A stretch of DNA of 64,000 nucleotides from Comamonas testosteroni (lineage in GTDB: Bacteria > Pseudomonadota > Gammaproteobacteria > Burkholderiales > Burkholderiaceae_C). The position numbers and the translations under genes are program-made. Location: the NCBI GenBank assembly GCA_008727115.1, contig CP044131.1, forward strand, positions 2,976,001 to 3,040,000. The letters run 5' to 3'. Below the pieces are notes generated by a model. The model had not been told where the DNA came from and did not search any database. It saw only the letters and a program-made list of their open reading frames with translations. Numbering within the stretch: the stretch's first letter is position 1; the number at the start of each line of letters is the position of its first letter. Shown here piece after piece: positions 17,563 to 64,000 of the stretch.

Positions 17563-18086
17563 TGCTTCTGGCAAGCTATAAGTCCACCCGCCCAGGCCTG
17601 CAGGGCGTCTTCAATCGCATCATCCGGCTGCGCCTGCGCGGGCAGTACAGCCACACAGAGGTGGTTTTTGAGCCGGGTGACGGCGTTGGCTACCTCATGC
17701 CAGACGGCTCTGCAGCTCGTGGCCAGGACGGCTCGCTGTGGTGTGGCTCCAGCGTGGCGGCCGAGGCCTTGCCAGAGTTTTCTCAACGCAGAGCAGGCAA
17801 GGCAGGCGGTGTGCGCCTCAAGCGCGTGGTGCTTGACCCGGCCCGCTGGGACGTCGTCAAAGTCGCATTTGACCCCGTGGCCACGGCTCAGTGGTTCAAA
17901 GCGCATGAGGGCGAGATGTACGACTGGCAACTGATCCTGGGCTTCCTGAGCTGGGTGATCCCGCAAAAGGATCAGCGCTGGACCTGCAGCGAGGCCTGCG
18001 CGGCCGCGCTGGGCATGAGCGAGTCGGAGGCCTGGCGCCTGGACCCTTGCGACATGGCCATGGCCGCTACCTGGGCGGCCAGATAG
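17562..18086 (+). CDS. Predicted permuted NlpC/P60-like (papain-fold) protein
   Basis: 174 residues, start overlapping the preceding stop (TGATG). An early His (YSHTEVVFE, about residue 30) followed far downstream by a Cys in RWTCSEACAAALG (about residue 146) is the order seen in circularly permuted NlpC/P60 (YiiX-type) hydrolases. GDGVGYLMPDGSAARG and YDWQLILGFLS also fit that fold. Such phage proteins are often misnamed enoyl-CoA hydratase. Likely roles are peptidoglycan cleavage at infection or attack on an acyl/amide bond. The substrate is unknown; no signal peptide is seen. Confidence 0.55.
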   Translation: MLLASYKSTRPGLQGVFNRIIRLRLRGQYSHTEVVFEPGDGVGYLMPDGSAARGQDGSLWCGSSVAAEALPEFSQRRAGKAGGVRLKRVVLDPARWDVVKVAFDPVATAQWFKAHEGEMYDWQLILGFLSWVIPQKDQRWTCSEACAAALGMSESEAWRLDPCDMAMAATWAAR

Positions 18087-18090
18087 CAAA

Positions 18091-18210
18091 AAAAGACGGG
18101 CGACCTGGTCGGGTGCTGTAACACCTGGCCAAGACCCCAACCTGCAGAGTGAGCTGCAAGCAAGGCTAAGACCCGCCGCTCTCGAGAGCCCGGCAAGTCT
18201 ATCGTCTTTC
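18091..18210 (+). ncRNA. Candidate structured RNA leader upstream of com-dam
   Basis: This lies in the 145-base gap between two phage genes. AAAGACG (18092-18098) can pair with CGTCTTT (18203-18209), closing a domain with three hairpins. First is a 9-bp stem, 18107-18115 with 18122-18130, loop CTGTAA. Second is a 5-bp stem TGCAG/CTGCA, 18143-18147 with 18154-18158, loop AGTGAG. Third is a bulged stem, 18175-18181 with 18186-18194, loop TCGA. Similar GGTGCTG-AACACC hairpins precede small genes in other prophages, as I remember. No GATC site lies in the gap, so Mu-type Dam control of the promoter is not indicated. Confidence 0.5.
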
Positions 18211-18231
18211 AACAGTTGAAACTGGCTTGCA

Positions 18232-18465
18232 ATGACTGAAATTAGGTGCGGCAGTTGCCGCAAGAAACTGGCCGAAGGTGAATACATCCGCCTGGCCATC
18301 AAGTGCCCCCGCTGCGGGGCCTTCAATCAGCTGAGCGCCCAGAGCGCCCCAAGAGAGCCCCAGCGCGGGCCAGAAGCTGAGATAAATGACAAACCCCATC
18401 ATTCCTTGGATCGGCGGCAAACGCCGCTTGGTCGACATGCTGCTCAAGCGCTTTCCGGCGCATGA
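18232..18465 (+). CDS. com: Com-family zinc-finger translational regulator
   Basis: 77 residues. The N-terminal IRCGSCRKKLAEG and IKCPRCGAFNQLS give the CxxC-x(~19)-CxxC zinc finger of phage Mu Com. In Mu, Com binds the mom mRNA, opens a hairpin over the mom start and allows synthesis of the DNA modification enzyme. Here the C-terminal 27 codons overlap the start of a Dam-type methylase in another frame, just as com overlaps mom. The C-terminal tail past residue about 45 is polar and may be constrained by that overlap. No ribosome-binding site is obvious before 18232. Confidence 0.85.
   Translation: MTEIRCGSCRKKLAEGEYIRLAIKCPRCGAFNQLSAQSAPREPQRGPEAEINDKPHHSLDRRQTPLGRHAAQALSGA
18327..18388 (+). 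promoter_or_regulatory. Possible Com-responsive hairpin occluding the dam translation start
   Basis: TCAGCT (18327-18332) pairs with AGCTGA (18375-18380), and GCCC (18337-18340) with GGGC (18367-18370), around a 4x4 internal loop and a 26-base apical loop. The 3' arm ends on the weak GAGA ribosome-binding site (18379-18382), four bases before the dam ATG at 18386. This resembles the Mu mom translation inhibition structure. The pairing is read by eye only. Confidence 0.35.
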
Positions 18466-19177
18466 CTGCTACGTGGAGGTCTTTGCGGGCGGCGCGGCCG
18501 TCTACTTTGCCCGCCACCCAGCCGACGTCGAGGTGCTCAACGACGTCAATGGCGACCTGGTCAATCTATATAGAGTGGTGACGCACCACCTAGAGGAGTT
18601 CGTGCGCCAGTTCAAATGGGCGCTGACCTCCCGCCAGGTCTTCAAATGGCTGCAGGACACCCGGCCCGAGACCCTGACCGACATTCAACGGGCGGCGCGG
18701 TTCTTCTATCTGCAGCAACAGAGCTTCGGCGGCAAGGTCTCAGGCCAGACCTTCGGTACCGCGACCACGGCCCCGGCCATCAACCTGCTGCGGATTGAGG
18801 AAAATCTCTCGGCCGCTCACCTACGCATGGCTGGCGGTACATATATAGAGCAGCTCGACTGGGCCTCCTGTATGGACCGCTACGACCGCGCCCATACTCT
18901 CTTCTATATGGATCCACCGTACTGGGAGACCGAGGGCTATGGCGTGCCGTTCCCCTGGGAGCAGTACGAGCTGATGGCCCAAAAGCTCAAGACCATCAAG
19001 GGCAAGGCCGTCATCAGCATCAACGACCACCCTGCGATCAGGGAGTGCTTCAAGGACTTTGAGATGGAGGCGCTCAAGCTCGACTACACCGTTGGCGGCG
19101 GCGCAAACCGCGTCGAGCGCGGGGAGCTGGTCATCTATAGTTGGAACAGAGAGGCGGAGCCTGCGGGCTTGTTCTAA
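18386..19177 (+). CDS. DNA adenine-N6 methyltransferase (D12 class, Dam-like)
   Basis: 263 residues. The AdoMet-binding motif IIPWIGGKRRL (residues 5-15), FAGGAAVYF (33-41) and catalytic DPPYW (176-180) place it in the D12/Dam class of adenine methylases. It has no restriction partner nearby, so it is an orphan phage methylase that likely protects the genome from host restriction, as Mom does chemically in Mu. The start lies inside com (80-base overlap in a different frame), and translation probably depends on Com. The target sequence cannot be read from the protein. The length is normal for the family. Confidence 0.88.
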   Translation: MTNPIIPWIGGKRRLVDMLLKRFPAHDCYVEVFAGGAAVYFARHPADVEVLNDVNGDLVNLYRVVTHHLEEFVRQFKWALTSRQVFKWLQDTRPETLTDIQRAARFFYLQQQSFGGKVSGQTFGTATTAPAINLLRIEENLSAAHLRMAGGTYIEQLDWASCMDRYDRAHTLFYMDPPYWETEGYGVPFPWEQYELMAQKLKTIKGKAVISINDHPAIRECFKDFEMEALKLDYTVGGGANRVERGELVIYSWNREAEPAGLF

Positions 19178-33505: not shown

Positions 33506-34405
33506 ATGACCACCTCATTGAACACGCTGATCTCTGCTGAAGATCTGGCCCGTCTCAAAGCCAGCGGCAAGCCCCTGATGGTGTTTGACTGCAGCTTTGA
33601 CCTCATGAAGCCTTCATCCGGACACGCGCAGTATCTTGAGGCCCATATTCCCGGCGCGGTGTTTGCCGATCTGGACAAGAACCTCAGTGCCCCACACGGC
33701 ACTCCTGGCGAAACCGGACAGGTTGCCACCAGCGTGCAAGCCGCCTCAGGCGGCCGCCACCCTTTGCCCACGCGGGAGCGCTTTGCCGCATGGCTGTCCT
33801 CCGTCGGCTTCTCCAACGAGATGCAGGCCGTCATCTATGACCGCAACCAGGCCAACTATTGCGGCCGCCTGTGGTGGATGCTGCGTTGGGCCGGGCACGA
33901 TGCCGTGGCCGTGCTCGATGGTGGCTTGCAAGCCTGGCAGACGGCCGGGCACAGCATCAGCAGCGGCGAAGAGCCCCGCCATTTCCAGTCCAACTTCGAG
34001 CTGAGCGAACCACTGGAAACCCTCAAGACCGCGGCTCAGGTCGAGGCCGAGCTGGGTCAGCCCACCCAGACCTTGATCGATGCTCGCGCACCTGCCCGCT
34101 ACCGCGGAGAGGTCGAGCCCATGGACCCTGTGGCGGGCCATATTCCTGGAGCCCTCAACCGCCCCTTTAGCAGCAATATTGCAGCCGATGGCCGGTTCAA
34201 GCCTGCCGCCCTGCTCAAGGCCGAGTTTGAGGAGTTGCTGGCCGGGCGCGATCCTGCCACCGTGGTTCATCAATGCGGCAGCGGCGTCAGCGCCACCCCC
34301 AATGTGCTGGCCATGCGCATTGCGGGCTTTGCTCCTACAGCTCTGTTTGCAGGTAGCTGGAGCGAGTGGTGCAGTCAGCCCTCTCGGCCGGTGGAGCGGG
34401 GCTGA
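33506..34405 (+). CDS. sseA: 3-mercaptopyruvate/thiosulfate sulfurtransferase
   Basis: 299 residues with two rhodanese domains. N-terminal inactive domain about 10-140 (LMVFDCSFDL, AHIPGAVFADLD). C-terminal catalytic domain about 165-295 with Cys257 in HQCGSGVSATPN, the CGSG(V/T)-type loop of 3-mercaptopyruvate sulfurtransferases. Transfers sulfane sulfur to thiol acceptors or cyanide, cytoplasmic. AAAGGAG lies just before the ATG. Its 3' end overlaps the convergent diguanylate cyclase gene by about 70 bases. Confidence 0.93.
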   Translation: MTTSLNTLISAEDLARLKASGKPLMVFDCSFDLMKPSSGHAQYLEAHIPGAVFADLDKNLSAPHGTPGETGQVATSVQAASGGRHPLPTRERFAAWLSSVGFSNEMQAVIYDRNQANYCGRLWWMLRWAGHDAVAVLDGGLQAWQTAGHSISSGEEPRHFQSNFELSEPLETLKTAAQVEAELGQPTQTLIDARAPARYRGEVEPMDPVAGHIPGALNRPFSSNIAADGRFKPAALLKAEFEELLAGRDPATVVHQCGSGVSATPNVLAMRIAGFAPTALFAGSWSEWCSQPSRPVERG

Positions 34406-35582
34406 CCCTGCCGCGAGCAGGCGCCAGAGACGGAGGCAGCCTGCCCTCTGCCCAAACCACACGGTTGCGTCCTTCACTCTTGGCCCGGTACAAAGCAGCG
34501 TCGGTACGCTCCAGCAAGGCCTCGGTACTCTCTGCGCTCTGCAGCAAAGCCGCCCCGATGGAGACGGTGTAGGCGACCCGAAGGCCGGATGCCAATACCG
34601 CAGGGTGCTCAGCCACCCTGGCTCTGACATGCTCCAGTCGCTTGGCGCCATCTGCCCGGCTGGTGTTGCTCATCAGCAGCACAAACTCCTCGCCGCCCCA
34701 GCGGGCCCAGATGTCCGTGGCACGAATGCAGCTTTGCACTTTGCGGGCAAAGTCCTGCAACACCTGATCGCCTGCCGCGTGGCCATAGCTGTCATTCACC
34801 TTCTTGAAAAAATCCAGATCCAGCTGTGCCACCAGCAAAGGCTGCCCGCTGCGTCTAGCACGCAACTCTTCCAGCCTCAGCATGTCCTGCATGTAGCGCC
34901 GATTGGGAAGGCCGGTCAGCTCATCTCTGGTGGCCACCTCATGAATCTGTGCCACCGCCTCAGCCAACTCCTGCTTTTGCACCTGAAGCCGCTCTCGCAT
35001 GGAGTTGGCATGCAGACTCAAGGCCGCCGTCATGATCAAAACGATGCTCACCACTGCCAGGTAAATCGCCGCAAAAAAACCCTGCATGGTGTCATTGGGA
35101 AGCCCCCAGTACACCACGGCGCCCGCAACGGCATAGGCCACAAAGCCATACAGCGTCACCGCCATGAGCCTGGAAGGCCGCAACCCGAACACCGCAAACA
35201 TCATGATGATGCTCAGCACCAGCGGCGGAACGCCGCGCGCAGGGCCCGCTATCACATAGGCCACCACATTGCTGGTAATGGCCAAAAGCATTTGCACTGC
35301 GGTGAAGGCCGGATCCTCCCAGTGCCGCGTCACGCCGCTGCGAATCAAGGCAAAGCTCAGCAGCACGCCCGCGCCACTGGCCAAGGACCACCAGCGCACC
35401 CATTGAGGATTCGCCACTCCCGCGCGCCCCAGCCACTCCATGACCAGAATGCAAAACGCCATGAGCAAACAGGCAAAGCCGGTGGTGGTCAAGGACATGC
35501 GCAGCCGGGGATCGGTCGTCAGCAGCACATCCCGCCAGCGGCTGCGCCTGGCGTCTGGAGGACTGAAGAACTTGCGACTCAT
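34335..35582 (-). CDS. Membrane-bound diguanylate cyclase (GGDEF)
   Basis: 415 residues from ATG 35582, which has AGGAG at ideal spacing; a longer frame upstream lacks one. About six hydrophobic segments (TTTGFACLLMAFCILVMEWL to AIYLAVVSIVLIMTAALSL) form an N-terminal membrane sensor, then a coiled coil (ERLQVQKQELAEAVAQIHEV) and a GGDEF domain. The domain has DELTGLPNRRYM, the active site GGEEF and an allosteric RxxD site (RATD) five residues before it. It should make cyclic-di-GMP and be feedback inhibited. It lies divergent to flhDC, which fits control of motility versus attachment. The C-terminal 23 codons overlap the sulfurtransferase gene. Confidence 0.9.
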   Translation of the reverse strand: MSRKFFSPPDARRSRWRDVLLTTDPRLRMSLTTTGFACLLMAFCILVMEWLGRAGVANPQWVRWWSLASGAGVLLSFALIRSGVTRHWEDPAFTAVQMLLAITSNVVAYVIAGPARGVPPLVLSIIMMFAVFGLRPSRLMAVTLYGFVAYAVAGAVVYWGLPNDTMQGFFAAIYLAVVSIVLIMTAALSLHANSMRERLQVQKQELAEAVAQIHEVATRDELTGLPNRRYMQDMLRLEELRARRSGQPLLVAQLDLDFFKKVNDSYGHAAGDQVLQDFARKVQSCIRATDIWARWGGEEFVLLMSNTSRADGAKRLEHVRARVAEHPAVLASGLRVAYTVSIGAALLQSAESTEALLERTDAALYRAKSEGRNRVVWAEGRLPPSLAPARGRVSPAPPAERADCTTRSSYLQTEL

Positions 35583-35979
35583 ACACGCTCCTGAAAACCT
35601 TGATGCCATGCATCGACCTGATTCACGCAACTATCACCAGCACTGGCCCACCGCTGTATGTCAGATACGTCCAGATGGCGCGCAAAAGCCGTTTATTTCT
35701 CCGTTTGTCGTTTTTCAGACAGTCTCACAATACCCAGGCCAGCAGTCCATGACCTGAATCAATGGCACCCACACTCCGGCGGCCACCTTCTGCCGCCACG
35801 CCGTCTGCCGGGTAAGGGAAATCCGACACAGCCCCTTGCGCAACCAGACTTGCGGCACCGTCCTGCCCCGACTTCAGTTCGATTTGGGCTTGAAACACAA
35901 TTCATTTCAACAGATCGAAACACTTCTGAAGCCTGATGTGTAAGCCGTTGCGGTCTGTAGCGATTGAAAGGACTGACCC
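35583..35979. promoter_or_regulatory. Divergent intergenic region, diguanylate cyclase / flhDC
   Basis: 397 bases without a convincing gene. It must hold the promoters for the cyclase (leftward) and flhD (rightward). The part from about 35,880 is AT-richer (TTGAAACACAATTCATTTCAA at 35,890-35,910) and could hold a promoter, but I see no consensus -35/-10 pair or recognisable operator. Confidence 0.4.
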
Positions 35980-36306
35980 ATGACGAACGAACAACTGCTT
36001 GCCGAGATCCGCGAAGCCAACCTCACTTATCTGATGCTGGCCCAGACCCTGATCCGCCAGGACAAGGCCGAGGCCGTGTTCCGACTGGGTCTGAATGAAG
36101 AGTCCTGCGATCTGCTGGGCTCGCTGTCTTCGGCCCAGGTGCTCAAGCTGGCATCGCGCAATACCCTGCTGGCCAGCTTCCGCGCCGATGACGAGATGGT
36201 CTGGGGCCTGCTGACCAACCACAGCGGCAACAAAATCGCCAACGCCGCCACCAATACGCTGCACGCCAACATCCTGATGGCCAGCCGTGTCTCCGAAGTG
36301 CTCTGA
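35980..36306 (+). CDS. flhD: Flagellar transcriptional activator FlhD
   Basis: 108 residues, starting MTNEQLLAEIREANLTYL. The blocks LAQTLIRQDKAEAVFRLGL and LAQVLKLASRNTLLASFRAD-type residues (about 48-68) are those of FlhD. With FlhC it forms the heterohexamer that activates class II flagellar promoters. It is followed 38 bases later by flhC. Neighbouring motAB/che genes usual in other genomes are absent here. It is divergent from a diguanylate cyclase. Confidence 0.95.
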   Translation: MTNEQLLAEIREANLTYLMLAQTLIRQDKAEAVFRLGLNEESCDLLGSLSSAQVLKLASRNTLLASFRADDEMVWGLLTNHSGNKIANAATNTLHANILMASRVSEVL

Positions 36307-36344
36307 GCACCCGTTAGCAACGACCTGGTTTGAAGGAGAGACTG

Positions 36345-36896
36345 ATGCCCGCCGCCAAGACTGCCACCAAAAGCGTTCTCAACGAATCCAAGCAAATCGA
36401 GCGCGCCGCCATGCTCATCGAGATGGGCGCCCGCATGCAGGTGCTGGAGTCCGAGACCACGCTGTCCTATGAGCGCCTGATCCGGCTGTACAAGGAAATC
36501 TCGGGCAAGTCTCCCTCCAAGGGCCAGCTGCCGTTTTCCACGGACTGGTTTCTGACCTGGCAGGAAAACATTCACAGCTCGCTGTTTCTCAACATCTACG
36601 AATACCTGTCCAAGGGCGTGGAGCTGGACACGGCCGAGCAGCTGACCAAGGCCTACCGCCTCTATACCGAACAGATTCAGGCCGCCGAGCTGGATGTGCT
36701 GCTGTCCTTTACCCGCGCTTGGCGCCTGGTGAAGTTTGTCGATGCGCAGATGCTGACGCGCACACAGTGCTCGACCTGCAAGGGCCAGTTTGTGACCGAG
36801 CCTTATGAGAACGCACGCCACTACCAGTGTGGCCTGTGCAATCCTCCGGCACGCGCTGGCAAGAGCAAGGCTGCTGGGTCCCTCATGTTGCACTGA
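36345..36896 (+). CDS. flhC: Flagellar transcriptional activator FlhC
   Basis: 183 residues from ATG 36345, preceded by AAGGAGAG; a TTG start 15 bases upstream is less likely. SKQIERAAMLIEMGARMQVL, LPFSTDWFLTWQENIHSSLF and a C-terminal four-Cys zinc site (CSTCKGQF ... YQCGLCNPP) define FlhC, the main DNA-binding partner in FlhD4C2. A family 1 repeat starts ten bases after the stop. Confidence 0.95.
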   Translation: MPAAKTATKSVLNESKQIERAAMLIEMGARMQVLESETTLSYERLIRLYKEISGKSPSKGQLPFSTDWFLTWQENIHSSLFLNIYEYLSKGVELDTAEQLTKAYRLYTEQIQAAELDVLLSFTRAWRLVKFVDAQMLTRTQCSTCKGQFVTEPYENARHYQCGLCNPPARAGKSKAAGSLMLH

Positions 36897-63067: not shown

Positions 63068-64000
63068 TCAAAGCGAAGGCTTGAGTCTGAAGCTACCCGC
63101 CAGCTTCACCATCATGAAGAGCCACAGCACACCGCCCATGGCAATCAGGCAGCCCCCGACATAGCCAATCTGGCCCATACCCCATTGCTGGCTGACGATG
63201 CTGCCCAGCAACGCACCGCCACCAATGCCGATGTTGAAAATGCCCGAGAACATGGACATGGCCACATCGGTCGCATCGGGCGCCAAGTTCAGCACCTTGG
63301 ACTGCATGGACAGCGCAAAGCAGATCATGGCAATGCCCCAGATGGAGCTTTGCAGATACAGGCTCCAGACATGCGCACTGCTCATGACCAGCAGCAGCAA
63401 GCTCAGCGCCAGCACCGCAATGGCCGACAGCAAGAAGCCGCGCGGAAAGCGCATGCCAAACCAGCCAAACAGCACGCTGCCCACAATACCCATGCCGCCG
63501 TACAGCAGCAGCACAGCCGTGGTCACATTGCCCACATGGCCGGCAATGTCCTGCACAAACGGCTCGATATAGCTGTATGCGGTGAACTGGCCGGTGATCA
63601 CCACCACCAGCAGCGCATAAATACCCACCAGCGCCGGGCGCTTGAACAGTACGGGCACGCTGGACAGCGAGCCTGCGTTCTCGCTGGGCAGCAACGGCAG
63701 CAGCTTGCCCAGCACCAGCATCACCACGGCTGCCACTCCGCCGATGGCCAGAAACGTCATGCGCCAGCCCAGCCACTCACCCACGATGCGCCCCAGCGGA
63801 ATACCCAGCACCATCGCAATCGACGTGCCCGTAGCCAGCAAGCTCAGTGCCAGGGCCTTCTTGCCAGGCGGTGCGACGCGCACGGCCAGCGATGCTGTAA
63901 TCGACCAAAAAATGGCATGCGACAGCGCAATGCCGATGCGGCTCACGAGCAGCGAGGCATAGCTCCAGGCCACGCCCGAGAGCACATGACTGAGCACAAA
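63068..64000 (-). CDS. MFS transporter, DHA1/sugar-efflux type, N-terminus beyond window
   Basis: The frame is open to the window edge (the codon at 63997 is GTG and more residues precede it), so the start is missing; about 310 residues are seen. Helical blocks of the MFS include the motif-like [40 protein letters not shown] and [14 protein letters not shown], then a second half starting near [20 protein letters not shown]. The sequence resembles SotB/SetB-type sugar or arabinose efflux proteins. Substrate not predictable. Confidence 0.85.

Follow-up and report, generated by a model that had tools for sequence, protein, structure and literature searches.

The window analysed here, i.e., the whole 64,000-nt stretch of the Comamonas testosteroni genome, carries on its plus strand a com gene (18232..18465; Zn_ribbon_Com, PF10122, 47.1 bits in Pfam, E 1.6e-12) and the gene of a D12-class adenine DNA methylase (18386..19177; Pfam MethyltransfD12, 79.6 bits). 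The locus raises the question of what the hairpin-rich gap directly upstream of com encodes, on which strand, and whether it controls the genes that follow. A preliminary description of this DNA had noted three hairpins inside a closing 7-bp stem and regarded these four complementarities as unlikely to be chance. Hairpins and stem are indeed where they had been placed (with AAAGACG at 18092-18098 and CGTCTTT at 18203-18209, their starts 111 nt apart), and the plus strand of 18091-18210 folds at -46.8 kcal/mol compared with a shuffle mean of -37.2 (z -2.5; 4 of 200 shuffles equal it). The inner helices proved to be conserved, but the outer stem is incidental and was rejected as a conserved helix, with its 3' partner present in 4 of 98 elements and in 4 of 29 close relatives (window counted). 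The inner helices are instead conserved under a different closing stem, P1, in which 18095-18101 pair with 18171-18177. An alternative helix of AGGC with GCCU was dropped on inspection by eye only. Within its source genome (4.1 Mb, one contig), the 201-bp stretch 18060-18260 has a single match.

The preliminary description had proposed a covariance search for this element among prophages carrying com, and such a search does find it there. Our search for Com yielded 41 viral loci, and the element precedes com in 34 of these, the exceptions being L033 and L037-L042; its homology ends sharply at an A-run before which the sequences of different loci diverge. A plus-strand model trained on 19 sequences, R1, gave matches in 19 of 24 chosen sources (the misses being L165, i.e., phage Carl1, as well as L033, L037, L041, and L042) and in all 45 sources of another set that includes its 19 training sequences. 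In draws of bacterial genomes that overlap and each contain the window's own genome, R1 matched 34 of 299 at the level of family, 9 of 369 at class (E 0.01; one match weak), and 13 of 398 at phylum, where one matching genome lies outside the window's class; the minus-strand model R2 matched 25 of 300 at order. Two matches, L182 (E 0.004) and L236, were treated as likely false, and loci L044-L163, which came from a pattern scan of viral contigs, are left out of all counts. Named phages bearing the element are Bise, AP3, Mana, KS5, Komp_PAO1_1, TJ1, UMP151, B3, PAN70, and Phipami28, the last with the same stretch as UMP151. The module therefore moves between different phages, since AP3, Mana, and KS5 are Peduoviridae while B3 is a Beetrevirus.

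Two of these loci deserve mention for their surroundings. In Pseudomonas phage Bise, a set resembling a diversity-generating retroelement (a variable lectin-like gene, a four-helix-bundle gene, a template-like repeat, and a reverse transcriptase; L043 29-2953) lies directly upstream of the element. Contig 1 of genome G918 holds five equally scoring copies (one of them L213), as a multi-copy transposable prophage would give.

That a structured RNA lies upstream of com is borne out by this conservation and by many compensatory changes, which are found on both strands: a MAFFT alignment of 27 minus-strand sequences holds 117 double-change cells compared with 31.5 after shuffling, and the plus-strand alignment holds 305 compared with 87.2 (including one stray antisense row, L172 minus, that was removed from the strand counts). 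Pairing in the same 27 sequences and pairs is more complete on the minus strand (92.4% of cells versus 77.6% on plus), though this comparison is not neutral because the extended pairs were picked by a minus-strand rule. We therefore turn to a choice of helices by Watson-Crick pairs only (at least 50%), which recovers the same four helices, P1, P2, P3, and P5. Read on the plus strand, these hold 97 A-C and 17 G-U cells, with A-C exceeding G-U in every helix; at a cut-off of 70% the count is 62 to 4, and P3 alone is reversed (0 to 2). The pairs of the plus-strand model itself give a similar picture across 54 sequences, i.e., 1202 Watson-Crick, 117 A-C (34 of them from one column pair), and 18 G-U cells. 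As A-C mismatches of the plus strand become G-U pairs on the minus strand, this pattern favours the minus strand, and it does so in alignments that were fitted to the plus-strand model and should favour plus. The minus strand also has the lower fold energy in 53 of 54 sequences, which is partly a matter of composition, and lies lower relative to its own shuffles (60 each) in 47 of 54 (mean z -3.85 versus -2.70 for plus).

Model scores are less telling. Higher scores of R2 than R1 on phages B3 and TJ1 were discarded as strand evidence because the training set of R2 is more diverse than that of R1, and a plus-strand model trained on the 27 sequences of R2, R3, removes most of the gap. With such equal training (27 sequences, same pairs), the minus model scores higher in 17 and the plus model in 8 of 25 untrained members, with a mean difference of 1.8 bits. 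In these alignments it is thus the mismatch pattern that decides the strand, while model scores do not separate the two. The structure seen in the preliminary description is real, but it was read on the wrong strand; the other idea offered there, an independent phage small RNA, is the one favoured by mismatch pattern and fold energies. Strand asymmetry and a covarying minus-strand structure opposite the leader of the regulated gene are what a cis-encoded antisense RNA should display. Both strands seem to be under selection, the minus strand for its fold and the plus strand for masking of a translation start.

The predicted antisense small RNA of ca. 100 nt occupies 18088..18190 on the minus strand, with its 5' end placed from a -10-like box, and R2 matches 18089-18204 with 96.2 bits (E 9.6e-22; the window is among the 27 training sequences). 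Read 5' to 3' on the minus strand, the parts are the -10-like box, a palindromic hairpin, a three-way junction closed by P1, and a U-run; the minimum free energy fold of 18088-18190 accordingly shows hairpin, closed junction, and U tail (-44.2 kcal/mol, z -2.6). The box, TAGACT at 18196..18201 (minus strand), was recognized by the enrichment of TAnnnT at the expected place, where 48 of 53 representatives (defined by less than 80% identity) have it compared with 83 of 1537 background windows. In 40 of these 48, a spacing of 6-10 nt separates the end of the box from the palindrome, most commonly 7 nt, and the longer form TGnTAnnnT was found in 67 of 127 elements. No -35 box was seen for the small RNA. 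A consensus scan of 17900-18420 found no sigma-70 promoter and no simple terminator, under a rule for hairpin terminators that admits only loops of 3-8 nt and to which a multibranched terminator is invisible.

The 5' hairpin, P5 (18178..18189, minus strand), is a perfect palindrome, GCTCTCGAGAGC. Perfect palindromes of at least 8 nt are present in 49 of 53 representatives, while shuffled segments reach that length in 20%, and they have nine different centres (central tetramers). Since the loop of a hairpin need not be palindromic, this feature suggests possible dimerization, a loop-loop contact, or a role at the DNA level. The three-way junction (18095..18177, minus strand) rests on the covariation of P1, P2 (about 18102-18115 with 18122-18136), and P3 (about 18141-18147 with 18154-18160), all recovered from column pairs under the Watson-Crick-only rule. 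Directly after P1 follows the U-run at 18088..18094, which on the plus strand is the A-run and is separated by 1 nt from the upstream gene's stop codon. It is 7 nt long in the window, at least 4 nt in 77 of 127 elements, and shorter in 50, and together with P1 it is likely an intrinsic terminator. From these parts we infer that the small RNA is transcribed from the minus strand, and its structure, strand, and conservation are established by comparison of sequences.

On the plus strand, the same DNA would form the leader of the com message. In it, UGCAAGC (18155..18161) is the reverse complement of GCUUGCA (18225..18231), the initiation-region partner directly before the com start codon, whose sequence recurs in the P3 arm of the small RNA. 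This is a general property of the element: the 3' arm of P3, together with the bases after it, shows complementarity to the next gene's initiation region lineage by lineage, as in the pairs GCAAGCC/GGCTTGC, GTGAGCC/GGCTCAC, GTGAGAC/GTCTCAC, GCAAATC/GATTTGC, GGCATTG/CGATGCC, and GGCAACACC/GGTGTTGCC. Starts were assigned, in part by hand, for 90 of 99 elements, and swap tests show this lineage-specific complementarity to exceed chance, as expected of a cis-acting leader. The mean of the leader-initiation duplex is -17.75 compared with -14.40 when permuted (53 representatives), and the longest Watson-Crick helix averages 6.14 compared with 4.65 (50 representatives in which the start must lie at least 9 nt beyond the element), neither value being reached in 20000 swaps (0/20000 each). 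On the leader side, the signal comes from positions 46-81 with a peak at nt 64-81 (z -8.4) and a smaller one at 100-117 (z -3.6); on the downstream side, it comes from the start region (z -8.0) and not from the next five windows downstream (-2.2 to 1.6).

The predicted folds agree with masking of the translation start by the leader. In the window's own sequence, 7.8 pairs are expected to form between initiation region and P3 region, and across 51 sequences the predicted unpaired fraction of the initiation region is 0.36 with the own leader, 0.43 for a foreign downstream part, and 0.47 with the leader masked. This effect is modest, with accessibility under the own leader lower in 36 of 51 cases than for the foreign downstream part and in 44 of 51 than with the leader barred. 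Complementarity is also seen where a methylase rather than com comes next (e.g., L176, L179, L206, L208), and it is weak or absent in some lineages (e.g., L036, L175, L220). The earlier suggestion of a leader controlling com thus survives in part: the plus strand does provide a leader with complementarity to the initiation region that follows, but this is not specific to com, as 40 of 128 instances of the element precede a D12 methylase where com was not found.

Which genes follow the element was classified by profile and sequence search over up to 1.5 kb. The 128 instances include three places fetched twice (L242=L189, L250=L192, L255=L194), and still contain close relatives. Of the 125 distinct places, 119 have com and/or a DNA-modification gene downstream in the plus direction. 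Besides the com-less D12 class, 56 of 128 instances have com with D12 and 23 have com with another modification enzyme, i.e., ATPase-GNAT in 9, N4/N6 types in 12 (one of which also has a D12 match), Mom in 1, and a formyltransferase in 1. Single instances have an N4/N6 type without com, ATPase-GNAT with a formyltransferase but without com, and com alone. No com or modification gene was found within the 1.5 kb searched in 6 of 128 (L195, L196, L200, L267, L198, and L236), with only 70 nt between element and contig end in L198. Pfam backs the assignments of ABC-type ATPase plus GNAT (some domains just below cut-offs), N6_N4_Mtase, Mom (259.9 bits), and Formyl_trans_N. Since Mom, ATPase-GNAT, and formyltransferase operons have the RNA in common with methylase operons, the idea of a methylase-related SAM-type riboswitch was dropped on gene content.

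In four loci a methylase follows the element directly without com, and PF10122 is absent at E 0.01 from ten tested genomes with com-less copies, so the element appears not to need Com, unless Com is too divergent there for the profile. Autoregulation by Com as a general mechanism was rejected on the basis of the same genomes; a Com-dependent translational switch of the Mu type would suit the window, where Com accompanies the element, but not the RNA overall. Com nonetheless has candidate targets of its own. The motifs CC(N)2-3GAG and GAG(N)2CC, taken from PMC6483171, form a Com-target-like cluster before the methylase start in the window (18333..18362, plus strand; a motif match for which no background was computed). 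Of 26 com operons tried, 24 had an assigned start of the modification gene, and in 21 of these such motifs lie before it (again no background computed), the three operons without them (L043, L169, L229) having doubtful starts. Layered control by RNA and Com is thus likely where com is present. As a conserved feature of the leader, the Com SELEX motif was rejected: among com-first representatives, 2 of 28 carry CC(N)2-3GAG in the P3 region, compared with 10 of 26 of the others. In the genome of the window, one PF10122 match exceeds the cut-off, and a second, weak Com-family match (17.9 bits, below cut-off) lies in a longer open frame at 63255-63347 of the window, minus strand.

Its position at the head of modification operons makes the RNA a guide to new DNA-modifying enzymes, and it has already led to an ATPase-GNAT fusion and to formyltransferases. 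The fusion, an ABC-type ATPase with GNAT of ca. 400 aa, follows the element in L029, L032, L168, L205, L211, L235, L240, L245, L248, and L259, with com present in all of these loci except L211, and is possibly an undescribed DNA-modification system. A formyltransferase lies near L211, and one is annotated next in phage Komp_PAO1_1 (L168). A 471-aa open frame that follows a com-less copy on the minus strand of L178 matches N4/N6 methylases weakly, and its N-terminal part looks ParB-like by eye.

We consider it reasonably probable that a counter-transcribed RNA and a self-masking leader together gate phage DNA modification, and the pair would then probably set the time at which the phage begins to camouflage its DNA against the defences of bacteria. 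The small RNA gene on the minus strand would start between the element and com and end at the U-run against the upstream stop codon, and in the com/dam/mom message read through on the plus strand, the P3 arm of the leader would pair with the ribosome-binding region of the next gene. Being antisense to the leader and having the same sequence as the masked ribosome-binding region, the small RNA would compete for the leader, and the module would work like plasmid counter-transcribed RNAs. The sequence fits relief or silencing and does not fix the sign of this regulation. We tentatively lean towards relief, short of calling it probable, in which the message by itself masks its own start and is opened when the small RNA pairs with it, because the small RNA carries the sequence of the masked start and could displace the start from the leader. 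RNAs that open a self-masked leader are known.

The next candidate, possible but more doubtful than relief, involves the same two RNAs with the opposite sign. In a lysogen, the small RNA would bind messages from leaky read-through and block their translation or bring RNase III, and in the lytic cycle late messages would outnumber it so that modification starts. Cis-antisense RNAs typically work by such logic, those of restriction-modification systems included (PMC3874152), and in a few lineages the small RNA is a better match to the initiation region than the leader is (L222, -21.3 versus -16.9; L228, -24.0 versus -16.3). Overall, though, the initiation region tracks the leader (z -8.5, 0/20000 swaps) more than the small RNA (z -3.0, 46/20000), and the leader alone is already predicted to be closed, as 45 of 54 sequences exceed 3 expected pairs.

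It is unlikely that the plus strand acts solely as a cis leader in the com mRNA while the minus strand is untranscribed. Such a leader would account for the leader-initiation complementarity, for plus-strand folds that are also below chance, and for the nearly equal scores of plus and minus models from the same sequences on untrained members. It leaves unexplained why A-C outnumbers G-U on the plus strand and why a -10-like box and a U-run stand at the right ends of the minus-strand RNA. We regard as very unlikely an autonomous small RNA that acts in trans on unrelated targets of the host or a rival phage and merely travels as cargo of modification modules. The loci L195, L196, L200, and L267, whose elements may be remnants or independent uses, would suit this idea as they have no recognized modification gene in the 1.5 kb searched, but the 119 of 125 places with com or a modification gene downstream in one fixed orientation and the co-evolution of the next gene's initiation region with the element speak against it. 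Finally, a DNA-level element (a recombination border or a protein-binding dyad) would explain perfect palindromes of varied sequence and a homology that ends at the A-run with differing sequences upstream, but is barely credible given the excess of A-C over G-U in all four helices and the covarying helices outside the palindrome, both of which indicate RNA.

Returning to the gate formed by counter-transcribed RNA and self-masking leader, a bolder version that we think quite improbable would make it portable and independent of protein: a self-masking leader opened by an antisense RNA that mimics the ribosome-binding region, dimerizes with concentration via its palindrome, and is reused across unrelated phages. 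If true, expression of the modifying enzyme would need both late transcription and many copies of the phage genome, and enzymes as different as methylases, Mom, and ATPase-GNAT modifiers would have adopted one RNA module. Even in its general form, the gate, if real, would mean that one RNA family connects the regulation of phage DNA modifications that differ in their chemistry, and that modules related to Com-mom have an RNA layer that also occurs without Com.

The element would represent a widespread RNA family without a match above threshold in Rfam 15. Across the window and 43 loci (3 of them without the element), none of 4227 Rfam families reached its gathering score within the element, and tRNAs outside it were the only families to do so. 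Sub-threshold matches to RF00236 (ctRNA_pGA1; gathering score 45) were found on the strand of the small RNA in L222, L217, and L180 (best 36.7, then 36.4 and 24.3 bits), with none in the window or the remaining scanned element-bearing loci; these agree with a counter-transcribed RNA but give no membership. A motif named D12-methyl has reportedly been published and may or may not overlap with this RNA; our literature search found no paper under that name, nor any description of this RNA in the literature searched, which covered few subscription papers.

Among known systems, plasmid ctRNAs are similar as short antisense RNAs whose hairpins end in a GC-rich stem and a U-run, but the element differs from them by its three-way junction and palindromic 5' hairpin and by adjoining DNA-modification rather than replication genes. 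Phage antisense RNAs such as sar of P22 and c4 of P1/P7 act on the initiation region of a neighbouring gene and thereby control its translation. The element resembles these as a predicted small phage RNA that would act through the initiation region of the gene beside it; neither sar nor c4 had an Rfam match to the element, and the only line for sar (21.8 bits at 1800-1843 of L178) lies outside it. Among restriction-modification systems, Rna0/PREV0 presumably belongs to that of EcoRI. Antisense transcription affecting a DNA-modification locus, by way of antisense RNAs and reverse promoters, is described for Rna0/PREV0 and Eco29kI (PMC3874152). These descriptions each concern one system, whereas the element is a conserved structured RNA common to different enzymes and phages. 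In phage Mu, a divergent promoter next to com-mom has already been described, namely momP2 (PMC4287176). The Mu com-mom control region (momP1/momP2, Com; PMC4287176, PMC6483171) thus has a divergent promoter next to com and a modification gene as well as a masked start codon, both of which are predicted for our loci, and the Com-target-like motifs before the modification-gene start are a further likeness. None of R1, R2, and R3 matched the com-mom end of Mu (34000-36717), and, unlike Mu com-mom, the element described here also serves operons without com.
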